DNA of 64,000 bases, taken from Pseudomonadota bacterium (GTDB lineage: Bacteria; Pseudomonadota; Alphaproteobacteria; Dongiales; Dongiaceae). Under the pieces are notes generated by a model. The model was not told where the DNA came from and searched no databases. It saw only the letters and a program-made list of their open reading frames with translations. The stretch's first letter is position 1; every line of letters begins with the position of its first letter. Below are positions 25,469 through 32,488 of this stretch, in pieces. The stretch is taken from NCBI GenBank assembly GCA_021792365.1, contig JAJYUT010000003.1, positions 682,001-746,000 on the forward strand, written 5' to 3'. The translations under genes were made by a program, and so were the position numbers.

Positions 25469-25750
25469 ATGACGGCCGACGGCGGGATCACGCGGGTGGC
25501 CAATATCCGCAACACGCGCGGGCTGCATGCCCGTGCGGCGGCGAAATTCGTGAAGGTGGCAGGCGGGTTTGATGCGCAGATCCGCGTCATCAAAGGGGAC
25601 ATGGACGTCTCCGGCACGTCGATCATGGGGCTCATGATGCTGGCTGCCGGGATCGGCACCGATATCGAGCTGCGCGCCAGCGGCGCCCAGGCGGAGGAGG
25701 CGATGCAGGCGCTCATGGACCTGATCGAGCGGAAATTCGATGAAGAGTGA
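25469..25750 (+). CDS. ptsH: Phosphocarrier protein HPr
   Basis: The 93-residue HPr has the catalytic His20 in TRGLHARAA, phosphorylated by EI, and the regulatory Ser51 in GTSIMGLMML, the target of HprK. It passes phosphate to the EIIA encoded just upstream. The C-terminal end overlaps the ptsI start by 11 bases, so translation is coupled. Confidence 0.94.
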   Translation: MTADGGITRVANIRNTRGLHARAAAKFVKVAGGFDAQIRVIKGDMDVSGTSIMGLMMLAAGIGTDIELRASGAQAEEAMQALMDLIERKFDEE

Positions 25751-27542
25751 CGACAAGAAGACGCGCCGCCTGCGCCGGCCGCGCGAGCGCGACGTCGAGC
25801 GCGCGTTCGACGGTCTGGGCGTCTCCCCCGGCATCGGGATCGGGCGCGTGCACGTGGTGGAGACCGGCGCGATCACCGTCTCCGAATACGAGATCGCCGA
25901 GGACAAGGTGCAGGCAGAGCTCGAGCGCTTCCACGGCGCGGTGCAGAAATCGGAGCGCCAGCTGCGCAAGCTCTCCAGCAAGGCGGAGGAGCTGCACGGC
26001 GCGGCCGCGGAAGAACTCGGCTTCCTGCTCGAAGCGCACAAGCAGATGCTGACCGGCTCGCGCGTGACGCGCGGGGTGGAGACGCGCATCCGCGAGCATC
26101 GCGTGAATGCCGAGGCCGCGGTGCAGTTCGTGATCAACAAGGTCGAGCAGGACTTCGCCGCGCTCGACGATCCGTATCTATCGGCGCGCGCCGACGATGT
26201 GCGCGAGGTCGGCAACCGCATCCTGCGCAACCTGACGCAGACGGCGTACGAGGCGTTCAAGAACCTGCCCGCCGGCTCCATCGTGGTGGCGGAGGAGCTG
26301 ACGCCGGCGGATACCGCGTTGCTGGACCCCAAGACCATCGAAGGATTCGCGACGGTGCTGGGCGGCAAGGAAGGGCACACCGCCATCATGGCGCGCTCGC
26401 TCGGCCTGCCCGCGGTGCTCGGCATTCCCGACCTGCTGCGCTTCGCGCGCACCGGGCAGGACATCATTGTCGACGGCGGTGCGGGGCGTGTCATTCTCAA
26501 TCCCGGCCCTGCCACCATCGCGGATTATCAGCGGCGGATGCAGGTCATCGAGCGGGACGAGCGGCAGCTCAGCCGGCTGCGCAAGCTGCCTTCCGTCACG
26601 CGCGACGGGCAGCGCATCGGGCTGCTCGCCAATGTGGAGCTGCCGCGCGAGGCGGAGATGGCGATGCATGCCGGTGCGGAAGGCATCGGGCTGCTGCGCA
26701 CCGAGTTCATGTTCATGAACCGCGACGACCTGCCGGACGAGGACGAGCAGTACCAGGCGCTGCGCCAGATCGTCGAGACCATGGAGGGCCAGCCGGTCAC
26801 CATCCGCACCCTGGACGTGGGCGGGGAGAAGCTGGCTCCATCCTTGCGCGATCACCTGGGCGAATCGGCCAACCCGGCGCTCGGCCTGCGCGCGATCCGC
26901 CTCAGCCTCAAAAGGCGCGAGCTGCTGGATGCTCAGCTGGCAGCGATCCTGCGCGCGGGGGTGCATGGGCCGGTGCGCATCCTGTTGCCCATGATCTCCT
27001 CGACCTCGGAGGTGAAGCAGGTGCGCGAAGCGCTGCTGCAGGTCGCGCGACGGCTGAAGCGGCGCGGCCAGAAGCTGCCCGATCCCCTGCCGCCGGTCGG
27101 CGTCATGATCGAGGTGCCAGGCGCGGCGCTCTCCGCCGACGCGCTGACCCAGGTCTCAGATTTCTTCGCCATCGGCTCCAACGACCTCACCATGTACACG
27201 CTGGCGATCGATCGCGGCGAGGAGCAGGTCGCGCATCTCTACAACCCGCTACACCCCGCGGTGCTGCGATTGGTTCAATTCGCAACCGAAGCCGCCCTGC
27301 GCGCGCGCATTCCCGTGAGCGTCTGCGGCGAGATCGCCGGCGACCCCAAATTCGCGCCGCTGCTGCTGGGCCTCGGCATCCAGGATCTCAGCATGGCGGC
27401 CAATTCCCTGCCCCGCGTGAAGCAGCGCATCCGCAATCTCGACTATCTCGCCTCCGCCCGCTTCGCGCGCCAGGTGATGGACCAGTGGGATTCGGGGCGC
27501 ATCGCGATGCTGCTCGACGATTTCAACGCGCTGGCGACGTGA
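25740..27542 (+). CDS. ptsI: PTS enzyme I (phosphoenolpyruvate-protein phosphotransferase)
   Basis: The 600-residue enzyme takes phosphate from PEP and gives it to HPr. The active His213 is in GGKEGHTAIMARS; the PEP-binding barrel shows LLRTEFMFMNR, IGSNDLTMY and the catalytic cysteine in SVCGEIAGDP. A Lys/Arg-rich N-tail of ~20 residues is unusual but short. There is no N-terminal GAF domain, so it is the classical EI rather than PtsP. The TGA stop shares a base with the next ATG (TGATG). A second diverged copy of the last 19 codons lies at 28099-28155. Confidence 0.94.
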   Translation: MKSDDKKTRRLRRPRERDVERAFDGLGVSPGIGIGRVHVVETGAITVSEYEIAEDKVQAELERFHGAVQKSERQLRKLSSKAEELHGAAAEELGFLLEAHKQMLTGSRVTRGVETRIREHRVNAEAAVQFVINKVEQDFAALDDPYLSARADDVREVGNRILRNLTQTAYEAFKNLPAGSIVVAEELTPADTALLDPKTIEGFATVLGGKEGHTAIMARSLGLPAVLGIPDLLRFARTGQDIIVDGGAGRVILNPGPATIADYQRRMQVIERDERQLSRLRKLPSVTRDGQRIGLLANVELPREAEMAMHAGAEGIGLLRTEFMFMNRDDLPDEDEQYQALRQIVETMEGQPVTIRTLDVGGEKLAPSLRDHLGESANPALGLRAIRLSLKRRELLDAQLAAILRAGVHGPVRILLPMISSTSEVKQVREALLQVARRLKRRGQKLPDPLPPVGVMIEVPGAALSADALTQVSDFFAIGSNDLTMYTLAIDRGEEQVAHLYNPLHPAVLRLVQFATEAALRARIPVSVCGEIAGDPKFAPLLLGLGIQDLSMAANSLPRVKQRIRNLDYLASARFARQVMDQWDSGRIAMLLDDFNALAT

Positions 27543-28036
27543 TGCGCAAATCCTTCCGCAGCCTGGTCAATGCAGCAAAACGCGGCAACGTCGAAGCACA
27601 ATGCCAGCTTGCGCAGGTGTTGGCGACCGGTGATGGGGTCGAGAAAAATCTGCCGGCCGCCGCGCAGTGGTATGCCAAGGCTGCCGCCAAGAACGACCCG
27701 TGGGCACTCTACAGTCTCGGCATAATGTACATCCTTGGCGAAACCGGCAGACCAGCGGTCAAGAAGGGTATGTCAATGATCAAGCGTGCCGCCGAACTCG
27801 ATTTGTGGGAGGCGCATTGGTATCTGGCACACGTCTTCATGGATGGCCTGCACGGTCAGCCGAGGGATCTGGACAAGGCCGCCTATTATTCTGTCCTTGC
27901 CCTTGGACCGTTCTATAGGACGAACGCCACTGCCGCCCTCGCGCACAGGATGCAGCAGCAGGAGGGCATCACGGCGCCAATTCTCGCTCGCGCACTGCTC
28001 AAGATCGCAGCGGAGGCGCGGAAGAGTAAGGCGTAG
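27542..28036 (+). CDS. Sel1-repeat (TPR-like) protein
   Basis: The 164-residue protein has three or so Sel1 helical repeats: AAKRGNVEAQCQLAQVLATG, AAKNDPWALYSLGIMYIL and AELDLWEAHWYLAHVFMDG. There is no signal peptide, so it is probably a cytoplasmic scaffold. Its ATG overlaps the ptsI stop (TGATG). The gene uses more A/T and rarer codons than ptsI. It is flanked on both sides by copies of the ptsI 3' end, suggesting it arrived as an insertion at that site. Confidence 0.8.
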   Translation: MRKSFRSLVNAAKRGNVEAQCQLAQVLATGDGVEKNLPAAAQWYAKAAAKNDPWALYSLGIMYILGETGRPAVKKGMSMIKRAAELDLWEAHWYLAHVFMDGLHGQPRDLDKAAYYSVLALGPFYRTNATAALAHRMQQQEGITAPILARALLKIAAEARKSKA

Positions 28037-28098
28037 CCGCCTCTTCCCGTTGACCCATCTGAACCGAGTTCGTATCTGCCGCGTTGTCGAGCGGCGGC

Positions 28099-28155
28099 CA
28101 GTGGACCCGGGCGATCGCGATTCTGCTGGACGACTTCAACGCACTAGCGACCTAG
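28099..28155 (+). pseudogene. Detached second copy of the ptsI 3' end
   Basis: In frame it reads QWTRAIAILLDDFNALAT and a TAG stop, against QWDSGRIAMLLDDFNALAT and TGA at the real ptsI end (27483-27542). Over the last 42 bases, 34 are identical, and the sense-codon changes are all but one synonymous. It has no start of its own and is separated from ptsI by the sel1 gene. Confidence 0.75.
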
Positions 28156-28218
28156 CGGATCCTTGTCGGATCAGCCCCCGCTCGCCAGCTGAGCGATAGT
28201 CCGCGTTCCGACAATCGC

Positions 28219-29157
28219 CTACGATGCTGCGCGCCGCTCGGGAAATTCGCTCGCCTTCGCCAGCCACTGGGCGCAGTCGGGTCCAAGGTGCCGGAGCGCG
28301 AGGCGCTCGTATTTGGCGCTTTCCTCTGCGGTCAGCACGTCACGCCAACGGCCGTTCGTGCCCTTATGGATGAAGGTTTCGGCACCGCCGTCCCAGAAGA
28401 CCCCGCCGAGCGGCGCGGCCTGCCTGGCGTGACTCTTCATCCACGCGAAGCTGCAATGCTTGAGGATCGCCGGCCAACGCGCCTCGTCGATCGGGATCGC
28501 GAGAAAGTCGGCGATGCGCCGGATCTGCCCGGGCAGGTCGGACTTGAGATCAGCGAAGTGCACCAGCAGCACGTTCGGCAGATGCCGCACCTCCCACCAG
28601 GACCGGATGTTCTCCCAGAACGGCCAGAACGGGTGGCCGTCGCGGTCGAGCCAGGCGTGGTAGTACTCCCGGATCGAGTCCGGCGGCGGCGCGATGGGTT
28701 CCCCGACGAGGCCCGGGGTGTCGTTCAGGGCCGCGTACCAGGCGGCGTTGGCGCGGGCATGGTGGTTAAACATGCTCCAGACCACGTCCCGGCCGTCCCG
28801 GCCGATATAGATGTATTTGGCCTGCGGCGAGAACACGAGCGCGTCGACCGGCAGGTGCGTCTTCATGAACCGCCGATGGGTCTGCGCCTCGATCGCGGCG
28901 AGTTTGACCTCCTTCGCCGGCACCCGCAGATCCAGCCAGGGCGAGATCGTCGGCACCTCGATGTCCTGCGCACCGGCGAAGATCAGTTGGCCGACAATCT
29001 GCTGCGTCCAGGTCGTGCCTGACTTGGCGTAGGTGCCGATGACGATGTCGTCGGGCCGGAAGCGGAAGCCGTTCCAGATCGTCGAATCGAAATGGTGGTT
29101 GTGCAGCTCGCGCGTCTTGCAAGGCCAGCGGATGCCTAGGTCGGTCGTGTTGGTCAT
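28219..29157 (-). CDS. Sulfotransferase domain protein
   Basis: This 312-residue enzyme resembles cytosolic PAPS-dependent sulfotransferases. The 5'-phosphosulfate loop is TYAKSGTTW (43-50) and the 3'-phosphate motif is GRDGRDVVWS (118-127). MKTHLP carries the catalytic-type histidine near residue 100, and KGTNGRWRDVLT the C-terminal PAPS contact. It would move sulfate from PAPS to an unknown hydroxyl or amine acceptor. It runs opposite to its neighbours and interrupts the conserved ptsI-ahcY interval. Confidence 0.87.
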   Translation of the reverse strand: MTNTTDLGIRWPCKTRELHNHHFDSTIWNGFRFRPDDIVIGTYAKSGTTWTQQIVGQLIFAGAQDIEVPTISPWLDLRVPAKEVKLAAIEAQTHRRFMKTHLPVDALVFSPQAKYIYIGRDGRDVVWSMFNHHARANAAWYAALNDTPGLVGEPIAPPPDSIREYYHAWLDRDGHPFWPFWENIRSWWEVRHLPNVLLVHFADLKSDLPGQIRRIADFLAIPIDEARWPAILKHCSFAWMKSHARQAAPLGGVFWDGGAETFIHKGTNGRWRDVLTAEESAKYERLALRHLGPDCAQWLAKASEFPERRAAS

Positions 29158-29591
29158 GCACTTTCCTCCAGCTCGGCCAGGGGCGCGCTCATTACAGCGG
29201 ATCCCGCCCTGGCCGAAGTGACGCCGATCACAACGAGCATCCGCTCGAGCGGAAAACGGTTAACAGCGGGCGGCCGCATAGGCCGTGCCTACACTGCTTT
29301 CCGGCGGCGGGACACTGGAAAGTCACCTGCTGCCCGATTTCAGCGCGATCCCGGTTTGGCGCCACGCCCGCTATCCAGCTGGGCGCACGATGGTCGTTGG
29401 CGAAGTGCTTGGCTGTCGATTCTTCGCGAGGACCGCGGCTCCCAAGCAGGTTGAGTCACTCTCAGTGGCCTGCGACCAAGTCGACCTGTTCCTGGCGAGC
29501 GCGTTTACTCACGCCTTGCGCAAGGCACAGTCTGAACCGAAAGCGGGCCTCCTGTGTTATCGAGCGGCGGCTGCTCGGTAGACCCTCGTCC
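29158..29591. other. Gene-free interval
   Basis: These 434 bases separate the divergent sulfotransferase and ZIP genes and presumably hold both promoters. Open frames across it show no family resemblance and no ribosome site; I see no repeat or RNA structure. Confidence 0.4.
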
Positions 29592-30374
29592 ATGTCTCCG
29601 TATCTCATCCTCGGTATCGCCGTCGCGGCGGCGCTTGCCTCGCCCCTGGGTGGCTTGATCTCCCTTTGGCTTGCGCCGACGACGCTTTTCATGTCGCTGG
29701 CCCTCGGCTTTGCCAGCGGGGTGCTGCTCGCCACCATCAGCTTCGAAATGCTGCCGCAGGCGCTCGAGGCCGGTTCGCTCTTGGTTGCTGTGGGTGGCTT
29801 TGCCGGCGGTTTTCTCGCCGTCTACGGGCTCGATCTCTTCATCAACCGTGGCAGGATCGCAGGCGAGAAGGCAGAGCAAAAAGACTTCGTGCGGCGCTTC
29901 CATCGGCGGCATCGGCCACGGGGAGATCAGGTCACGGTTCTTGCCGGCGGAACCAGCGTCGAGGAATTGATCGAGGGCCTCAGCATCGGCGTCGGCGCCG
30001 CCATCGAGCCGCATCTTGGCCTCATGGTAGGTGCGGCCGTCGTCGTCGACAACGTCGCGGAAGCGCTCAGCATCGGCGAATTGATCCGGGACGAAAGCCG
30101 CAAGGACGGCGGCCGGCCGGTCCGGCGGGTGCTCAAGTGGACCGGGTTGATCGGCGCCTCGCTCCTCGGTTCCGCCCTCATCGGCTGGTTCGCCCTGCGC
30201 GGACTACCTGATCCCTTGCTGGGTTTCCTATTCGCACTGGGCGGAGGCGGCATGTTCTATCTCACCGTCACGGACCTCGTGCCGGAATCCGAGAAGCGGC
30301 AGTACCAGCAATCGGCCGCCCTCGCGATCGGGGCAGGCTTCGTGATGATGCTGGCGCTCGGGCACGTCCGCTAG
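29592..30374 (+). CDS. ZIP-family metal transporter-like membrane protein
   Basis: The 260-residue inner-membrane protein has about eight hydrophobic segments with a His/Arg-rich cytoplasmic loop (RRFHRRHRPRGD, 101-112), the ZIP layout. The metal-site helices read SVEELIEGLSIG (122-133) and VVDNVAEALSIG (151-162). These align with the ZIP motifs HNxPEG, but both leading histidines are replaced by acidic residues. A Zn2+/Mn2+/Fe2+ role is therefore uncertain. The ATG at 29592 begins the first helix; no strong ribosome site is seen. Confidence 0.75.
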   Translation: MSPYLILGIAVAAALASPLGGLISLWLAPTTLFMSLALGFASGVLLATISFEMLPQALEAGSLLVAVGGFAGGFLAVYGLDLFINRGRIAGEKAEQKDFVRRFHRRHRPRGDQVTVLAGGTSVEELIEGLSIGVGAAIEPHLGLMVGAAVVVDNVAEALSIGELIRDESRKDGGRPVRRVLKWTGLIGASLLGSALIGWFALRGLPDPLLGFLFALGGGGMFYLTVTDLVPESEKRQYQQSAALAIGAGFVMMLALGHVR

Positions 30375-30422
30375 GGGTTTCTTCGCCTCAAATTGGGCAC
30401 AATGCTCTATGATCCCTGCGCC

Positions 30423-31094
30423 ATGCGGGTCTTGTTTCGCGCGCTCCTGACTCTCCTCTGCCTCCCCCTCGCCGCCCTTGCGACCTACACGGTCGCGGCG
30501 TTCGGGGCGTTGCTGTTCGTGCCGAGTGCGACCGAGCCCGACGAGGGCATCGTCGTCTATGCCTGCGACAACGGCGTGCACAGCGATCTAGTCGTGCCGG
30601 TCATCGCCGGGCATACCGACTGGCGCGCGACCTTCACGCCGGATGCGTTCACCGGGCCGGTCGCGCTCTTCGACCATATCGGCATGGGGTGGGGCAGCCG
30701 CGACTTCTATATCAACACGCCACACTGGGCGGATGTGGAGATCGCTCGGGCCGTCAAGTCGGTGCTGTGGGACGAGACGGTGCTCCATGTCGAGTACCGG
30801 CCGCGGCCGGGCGCGGCAGAGAAGTGCCGGCAATGGCGGATGGATGCTGCCGCCTATGGCCTGGTCGTAGGCTTCGTCCTGGACAGCCTCCGCCTCTCGC
30901 AGGGGCGGCCGGTCCAGGCGGCGCCGGGCTATGGCGGGCGCGACACGTTCTATGTGGCCAACGGCCGCTACACCATCATCGAGACCTGCAATCAGTGGAC
31001 GGCACGGGCGCTCCGCCTGGGCGGCGCGCCGGTGGCGCCCTGGGCCCCCTATTCCTTCCTGGTCTTGTGGAAACTGCCAATGATTCCAGGCTAG
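30423..31094 (+). CDS. DUF2459 / TIGR02117 family protein
   Basis: The protein of about 223 residues has one N-terminal membrane segment ([20 protein letters not shown]) followed by a periplasmic domain. Landmarks are [11 protein letters not shown], a [10 protein letters not shown] stretch, NTPHW and [12 protein letters not shown]. These place it in DUF2459, whose conserved His, Asp and Cys hint at a hydrolase or peptidase-like site; function is unknown. The start is either this ATG or one at 30402. It lies 98 bases before ahcY. Confidence 0.78.
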
Positions 31095-31145: not shown

Positions 31146-31192
31146 TGCTAGAAGGCGCGGACTTTCGCGACAAAGCCTTAACGGAGACCGGA

Positions 31193-32488
31193 ATGGCCGC
31201 CTTCACCGATTACAAAGTCAAGGACATGAGCCTCGCCGAGTGGGGGCGCAAGGAGATCGACATCGCCGAAACCGAGATGCCGGGCCTGATGGCCCTGCGC
31301 CGGGAGTTCGGCGCATCCAAGCCGCTCAAGGGCGCGCGCATCGCCGGGTGCCTGCACATGACGATCCAGACGGCGGTGCTGATCGAAACCTTGATGGCTC
31401 TTGGCGCCGAGGTGCGCTGGTCGTCGTGCAACATCTTCTCGACCCAGGACCAGGCGGCCGCGGCGATCGCCGCCGCCGGCATCCCCGTCTTCGCCTGGAA
31501 GGGCATGAGCGAGGACGAGTTCTGGTGGTGCATCGAGCAGACCATCGCCGGCCCGAACGGCTGGCATCCCAACATGATCCTGGATGACGGCGGCGATCTC
31601 ACCCAGATCATGCACGACAAGTATCCGCAGCTGATGGAGCAGGTGAAGGGCATCAGCGAGGAGACCACGACCGGCGTCGCGCGGCTCTATGAGATGGCGC
31701 GCAAGGAGACGCTGATGGTTCCCGCGATCAACGTCAACAACTCCGTCACCAAGTCGAAGTTCGACAACCTCTATGGCTGCCGCGAGAGCCTGGTGGACGG
31801 CATCAAGCGCGCGACCGACGTGATGATGGCCGGCAAGGTCGCGGTGGTTGCCGGCTTCGGCGACGTGGGCAAGGGTTCCGCCGCCTCGCTGCGCAGCCAG
31901 GGCGCGCGCGTGATGGTGACGGAGGTCGACCCGATCTGCGCGCTGCAGGCGGCGATGGAAGGCTACCAGGTGACGACCATGGAGGAAGCGGCGCCGCTCG
32001 GCGACATCTTCGTCACCGCCACCGGAAATGTCGACGTCATCACCCTCGACCACATGCGGCAGATGAAGCACCGCGCCATCGTGTGCAACATCGGCCATTT
32101 CGACAGCGAGATCCAGATTGCGTCGTTAAGGAACTACAAGTGGCACAACGTGAAGCCGCAGGTGGACGAGGTGGAGTTCCCGGACGGCAAGCGCCTCATC
32201 GTGCTCGCGGAGGGTCGCCTGGTGAACCTGGGCTGCGCGACGGGGCATCCGAGCTTCGTCATGTCGGCTTCTTTCACCAACCAGGTACTGGCGCAGATCG
32301 AGCTGTGGCAGAACCACAAGAAGTACGCCAAGCAGGTCTATGTCCTGCCGAAGCATTTGGACGAGAAGGTGGCGGCCCTGCATCTCGAGAAGATCGGCGT
32401 CAAGCTGACCAAGCTGACGCAGAAGCAGGCCGAATACATCGGCGTCGCGCAGGCCGGGCCCTTCAAGCCGGAGCATTATCGGTACTAG
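31193..32488 (+). CDS. ahcY: Adenosylhomocysteinase
   Basis: The 431-residue NAD-dependent enzyme splits S-adenosylhomocysteine into adenosine and homocysteine, clearing the by-product of SAM methylation. It shows [15 protein letters not shown], the catalytic-site stretches [10 protein letters not shown] and [13 protein letters not shown], the NAD motif GFGDVGKG, and C-terminal [15 protein letters not shown] with the terminal PEHYRY. The ATG at 31193 has a GGAG site. It lacks the ~40-residue insert found in some bacterial forms. A terminator follows. Confidence 0.96.

Follow-up and report, generated by a model that had tools for sequence, protein, structure and literature searches.

In Escherichia coli, the e14 prophage at icd is accompanied by a 163-bp duplicated gene end, and DLP12 at argU by one of 47 bp (PMC6379469). 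Conjugation in the same species yielded 14 sequenced clones with duplications of the lacZ end, 109-950 bp long, which that study ascribes to single crossovers (PMC3240628). In Vibrio, modules shift back the 3′ ends of genes, and homology-facilitated illegitimate recombination has been proposed as the process (PMC5361080).

The locus described here, the 3′ end of ptsI, a gene that controls sugar transport, in a soil bacterium, has points in common with each of these. As with e14 and DLP12, a gene end is duplicated around inserted DNA; however, the scanned genes of the ptsI interval include no integrase or prophage gene, and the cargo measures 0.5-1.4 kb (PMC6379469). As in the lacZ system, where no recombinase is necessary, foreign DNA adjoins a partial direct duplication of a 3′ end; the ptsI case differs in being reconstructed from sequence alone and in having a second copy that is diverged, not identical (PMC3240628). 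As at the 3′ ends of Vibrio cholerae T6SS effectors, a module enters at the end of a gene and the old end is moved back, but ptsI is a housekeeping gene, the window confers no visible immunity or toxin advantage, and it is the downstream copy that is more likely to be foreign (PMC5361080).

Our preferred reading, to which we give a probability of about one half, is that the second ptsI end is the scar of a horizontal replacement, homologous on one side and illegitimate on the other, and that it is a stub of the donor's ptsI. Such a stub would be a compact fossil of the entry of accessory genes amid conserved ones, marking one edge of the exchanged DNA. Events of this kind are already known from E. 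coli and Vibrio, and this case alone changes no known mechanism; judged by their titles, none of the papers that a literature search on these subjects turned up deals with it.

Gene Order and Comparison Set

The window (the whole 64-kb stretch of DNA analysed) comes from a genome, G000, in the genus group of Dongia deserti SYSU D60009 (G002), and its organism is therefore called Dongia here. The same-genus comparison set consists of D. deserti and two other genomes (G001 and G003), all of them congeners from outside the window's own species. The core order is hprK, rapZ, EIIA-man, HPr, ptsI, a variable interval, DUF2459, and ahcY (Table 1). The window's ptsI shares 95, 91, and 87% identity with the three same-genus genes, and homology to D. 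deserti resumes at 30384, before DUF2459.

Table 1. Features of the ptsI-ahcY region (positions in the window)
Feature	Position	Strand	Basis
ptsI (PTS enzyme I), complete	25740-27542	+	Pfam PEP-utilizers N/mobile/C
Tail 1, present ptsI 3′ end, most likely native	27483-27542	+	Comparison with D. deserti, G003, G001
sel1-repeat gene, 164 aa	27542-28036	+	Pfam Sel1, 6.8e-14
Direct repeat R1, abutting tail 2	28058-28098	+	31/41 nt identical to R2
Tail 2, displaced ptsI 3′ end, 18 codons + stop	28099-28155	+	Alignment, shuffles, profile
Sulfotransferase, accessory, closest relatives extrageneric	28219-29157	-	Pfam Sulfotransfer_1, 3.6e-48
Direct repeat R2, just 5′ of ZIP start codon	29531-29571	+	Alignment to R1
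ZIP-family metal transporter, accessory	29592-30374	+	Pfam Zip; NCBIfam ZupT, 2.2e-21, under its cut-off
DUF2459 gene	30423-31094	+	Pfam PF09601
ahcY, conserved right flank	31190-32488	+	Pfam AdoHcyase

A Second ptsI End

The ptsI gene ends in ...QWDSGRIAMLLDDFNALAT followed by TGA, and about 560 bases 3′ of this genuine end tail 2 reads, in frame, QWTRAIAILLDDFNALAT followed by TAG. An earlier note on this DNA had reported such a second end with its own stop; frame, alignment, and shuffles agree that it is real. The note's count of 34 matching bases out of 42 was reproduced (28114-28155 against 27501-27542), and the sel1 start is fused to the ptsI stop as it had described (TGATG, 27540-27544). 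Its statement that nearly all sense changes are synonymous is also borne out for 28114-28152, where five are synonymous and one replaces M by I. All six fall at third codon positions (hypergeometric P = 0.0005), as do seven of the eight differences once the stop codon is included (P = 0.0008).

Positions 28099-28113 are less conserved, with a 3-nt net deletion and DSGR against TRA, and over the whole 57 nt the third-position bias weakens to P of about 0.02 (hand count). The proposal that the two tails diverged under protein-level selection, and not after a local duplication, is accordingly only partly upheld: 28114-28152 looks coding-like, and 28099-28113 weakens the case. An attempt at dating from the absence of position-1 and position-2 changes in 13 codons (P = 0.009) was dropped because it excluded this less conserved 5′ part.

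The stretch is short and GC-rich, and coincidence, or an unrelated protein that happens to end in LLDDFNALAT, might be suspected, but several results refute this. Local alignment of the ptsI end with 28037-28218 scores 55; none of 200 shuffles scored above 24. Tail 2 has a profile score of 21.2, and the reverse-strand control, over 463,636 bases, rose no higher than 0.7. As a query against 385 genomes of the class (E 0.001), 28040-28218 matched 13, the window's own among them, and tail 2 found genuine ptsI ends of other genera in G013, G032, G012, G008, and G017. Seven of the 13 genomes (G258, G274, G319, G240, G146, G137, and G049) were matched elsewhere than at their listed ptsI genes; the matches in the last four of these lie inside unrelated frames and were judged GC-rich chance. 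Nor is tail 2 a general repeat, a possibility the earlier note had raised against itself: the LLDDFNA codon pattern, with at most one mismatch, occurs twice in G000, both times at this locus, and no other match to 28037-28218 in that genome is better than E 0.07.

Which End Is Native

The last 42 nt of tail 1 are identical in D. deserti. Tail 1 is 95.1% identical to the ptsI end of G003 over 61 nt and 90.5% to that of G001 over 63 nt, both genomes without sel1; the corresponding values for tail 2 are 83.3% over 48 nt and 82.6% over 46 nt. In the ptsI-ahcY intervals of the three congeners, nothing above shuffle level resembles tail 2, R1, or R2. The earlier note took the downstream copy for the native one and allowed that sel1-less relatives with the present tail, and nothing like 28099 before ahcY, would speak against it; G003 and G001 have exactly this arrangement. 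Tail 1 most likely is native and Dongia-like, to judge from these alignments.

No donor tract was found in ptsI, its identity to the three congeners being even along the gene (third-position identity in the last 100 codons is 77/70/67%, against 78/74/67% overall). The best match of tail 2 to other ptsI ends is 35/42, in a motif-filtered set of 33 entries including the window's own. The best tree places tail 2 beside the window and D. deserti with support 20/79, but it is built on 33 columns and is powerless; the tail alone is too short to tell which copy is foreign. The two tails differ at 8/42 positions, about 0.2 per site, and the neutral branch to D. deserti is 0.18.

The sel1 gene has a clear Sel1 repeat (52.2 bits, Pfam cut-off 30.7). 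Its only close relative among 17 family genomes (E 1e-14) is in D. deserti, at the same ptsI junction; a 385-genome draw from the class (E 1e-16), which did not return D. deserti, gave none beyond the window's own, and with looser limits Sel1 repeats are common (20/21 genomes). At 4-fold sites the two sel1 sequences are identical at 20/30, against 71% for nine pooled neighbouring genes, so the distance of sel1 from its D. deserti counterpart is close to that of its neighbours. In D. deserti, by our reading of the sequence, 12 bp separate the stop of the sel1 remnant from DUF4166, with no tail between.

Sel1 probably stood behind ptsI before the lineages of the window and D. deserti split. Because the ptsI-sel1 junction is common to both, the sel1-less congeners have tail 1, and ptsI has no donor tract, sel1 was probably there first and tail 2 came later. 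The earlier note had a foreign tail and sel1 enter together, restore the gene, and push the native tail downstream, which is not supported by the tail-less junction of D. deserti, the tail 1 of the sel1-less congeners, the even identity of ptsI, or the ordinary divergence of sel1; what survives of that history is an exchange of DNA at the ptsI 3′ end, and sel1 as the displacing cargo is unlikely.

The Accessory Genes

Tail 2, R1 and R2, the sulfotransferase, and the ZIP transporter are absent from the corresponding intervals of all three congeners. DUF4166 is present in all three of these intervals, and the 64-kb window has none. Among these congeners an empty or parental arrangement is represented by ptsI-sel1-DUF4166 in D. 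deserti and by ptsI-DUF4166 in G001; in G003 two genes, one rhodanese-like and one small, precede DUF4166.

The sulfotransferase is 63% identical to its relative in G014, a member of the family, 46% to a copy on another contig of D. deserti, and 63-73% to relatives in 14 further members of the class (E 1e-100); by this distribution it looks mobile. Relatives of the ZIP transporter were found only in D. deserti, on another contig and at 61%, among 61 genomes including the window's (E 1e-15), and in two other genomes of 385 in the class (E 1e-60). Neither this sulfotransferase nor ZIP comes after ptsI at any of 100 other loci (E 1e-5), a set in which several entries are short or duplicated.

R1 and R2 form a diverged 41-bp direct repeat (76%) flanking tail 2 and the sulfotransferase, a feature absent from the earlier note; 0/1000 shuffles reach its score. 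Within G000, exact copies of their 16-nt core are confined to R1 and R2; three more matches with one mismatch equal the number in a reversed control. The end of R1 and the start of ptsI homology are directly adjoining (28098/28099). On the right, 4-fold identity to D. deserti is 76% in DUF2459 and 75% in ahcY, and no donor tract is resolved.

A Similar Arrangement in Another Lineage

We surveyed 101 ptsI loci including the window, of which 99 had enough downstream DNA; at least two loci appear twice (L034/L067 and L015/L042). The downstream DNA amounted to 463,636 bases for the search with a 14-residue profile, built from 86 ptsI ends, and 390,573 for the alignment search. A high score with a stop three codons on was found at only two of the 99 loci, the window (profile 21.2; alignment 55) and L131 (10.4; 44). 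The third profile match (L116, 10.1) is without a ptsI-like stop, and the next alignment score is 35. In a codon-pattern search at least 54 of the 68 genomes listed were matched, and two matches within 1 kb occurred only in G000 and G446, the genome of L131.

In L131 (7758-8583), from a Baikal MAG, genes for ParD and ParE lie between ptsI and a second, degraded copy of its end; the contig ends about 146 bases past the stub. It appears to be an independent, distant case of the same layout. Six of the ten changes in its stub are at codon positions 1 and 2, a pattern that would be expected of a dead copy. The earlier note had suggested looking for the sel1-plus-tail cassette elsewhere: the layout does recur in L131 with ParDE as cargo, and with sel1 it was not found in the survey. 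A likeness of the peptide before the L131 tail to a methyltransferase start found no support on checking.

Two independent cases in 99 loci invite the broader suggestion that DNA lands repeatedly at the end of ptsI in these alphaproteobacteria: small accessory cassettes (sel1, ParDE), lacking an integrase of their own, would enter at this point, bring or duplicate some 50 bp of the ptsI end, and leave a stub. We consider this generalization quite unlikely. With such a stub recurring in a second lineage, larger genome sets could be used to test how often exchanges of this kind happen and in which direction.

Origin of the Displaced End

Under the replacement reading, tail 2 would be the severed 3′ end of another bacterium's ptsI. 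The donor segment would have had this end at its left edge, followed by the sulfotransferase, R2, and ZIP, and would have replaced what lay between the resident sel1 and DUF2459. The right join would be ordinary homologous recombination in ZIP/DUF2459/ahcY and the left join illegitimate, directly after resident sel1 and R1, so that the donor ptsI end remained as a dead stub. We infer the identity of the donor, the single event, and the homologous side. One replacement by donor DNA appears the most economical history, since a single event accounts for the arrival of tail 2 and of the new genes as well as the disappearance of DUF4166. The third-position bias of tail 2 fits time spent within a working ptsI, and the 76% identity of R1 and R2 would suit a leader present in two copies, one from the resident and one from the donor. 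Against this, in none of the sampled genomes does this sulfotransferase or ZIP come after ptsI, tail 2 reaches only 35/42 with other ptsI ends and is placed by the tree beside the window and D. deserti, DUF2459 and ahcY resolve no donor tract, and R1/R2 lack a direct explanation. In addition, PMC3240628 attributes its duplications to single crossovers and gives a value of only 3x10^-10 for homology-facilitated illegitimate recombination proper, and the layout of L131 is just as compatible with an insertion that pushed the native tail away from the ptsI end.

Such a displacement, in which a ptsI 3′ end and sel1 entered before the split from D. deserti and D. deserti later lost the displaced tail, is doubtful, though it keeps some weight. 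The order of ptsI, cargo, and displaced end is seen again in L131, e14 at icd (PMC6379469) and the Vibrio 3′ ends (PMC5361080) offer precedents, and the divergence of tail 2 is near the neutral D. deserti branch. However, same-genus genomes without sel1 have tail 1, D. deserti is without tail 2, and ptsI shows no donor tract; two extra events would be needed, loss of the tail in one lineage and replacement of DUF4166 in the other. Local duplication, with the ptsI end copied as DNA entered (for example from a circle by a single crossover) and the stub drifting unselected, seems unlikely. Duplications of the lacZ end were the usual result in the E. coli study, 56/60 clones giving a duplication PCR product (PMC3240628), and the deletion and amino-acid changes in the 5′ part of tail 2, like the position-1 and -2 differences in L131 (hand count), are in keeping with drift; the restriction of all six sense differences in 28114-28152 to third positions is not.

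Site-specific integration, in which the ptsI 3′ end would serve as attachment site and integrase elements would have left sel1 and the L131 ParDE genes as remnants, is improbable. The displaced ends in the two lineages are about 47-57 nt long and finish at the stop codon, L131 carries a toxin-antitoxin pair, and DLP12 leaves 47 bp at argU (PMC6379469). Yet the left borders of the two stubs differ (57 against about 47 nt), and there is no integrase among the scanned genes (sel1, sulfotransferase, ZIP, DUF2459, and ahcY); between the ptsI end and DUF2459 the scan, which covered the larger ORFs, gave only the first three. None of 25 viral stretches with the exact codon pattern reads as a ptsI end, phage records gave no match to the ptsI end, and the seven matches in plasmid records are all from Azospirillum (three annotated as the enzyme, four unannotated). 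An identical att core is absent from the two tails, the longest shared run in the alignment being 8 nt; it is possible that an old core has decayed.

Other Features of the Interval

At tail 2 the RNA fold is not unusually stable (z -0.91), and no terminator-like site was found there. In the gap between tail 2 and the sulfotransferase (28163-28214) an 8-bp perfect inverted repeat, TTGTCGGA / TCCGACAA, was spotted by eye; its fold is not unusually stable either. A third ptsI-like stretch (29327-29347) was discarded, 7/200 shuffles being as good, as was the idea that R1 is upstream ptsI sequence (446/500 shuffles as good).

The interval between ptsI and DUF2459 (27543-30422 in the window) has a different content in each of the four same-genus genomes seen and forms a small variable spot amid core genes. 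In D. deserti it holds the sel1 remnant, DUF4166, and a DsbD-like gene. The D. deserti sel1 (L031, 9470-9810, G002:C6) is a pseudogene that, by our reading, has lost about 185 bp net internally and shifted frame; a GTGA-type overlap still links it to ptsI. In G003 the gap between DUF2459 and ahcY carries an FkbM-type methyltransferase with DUF4214 (L032, 4212-5303).
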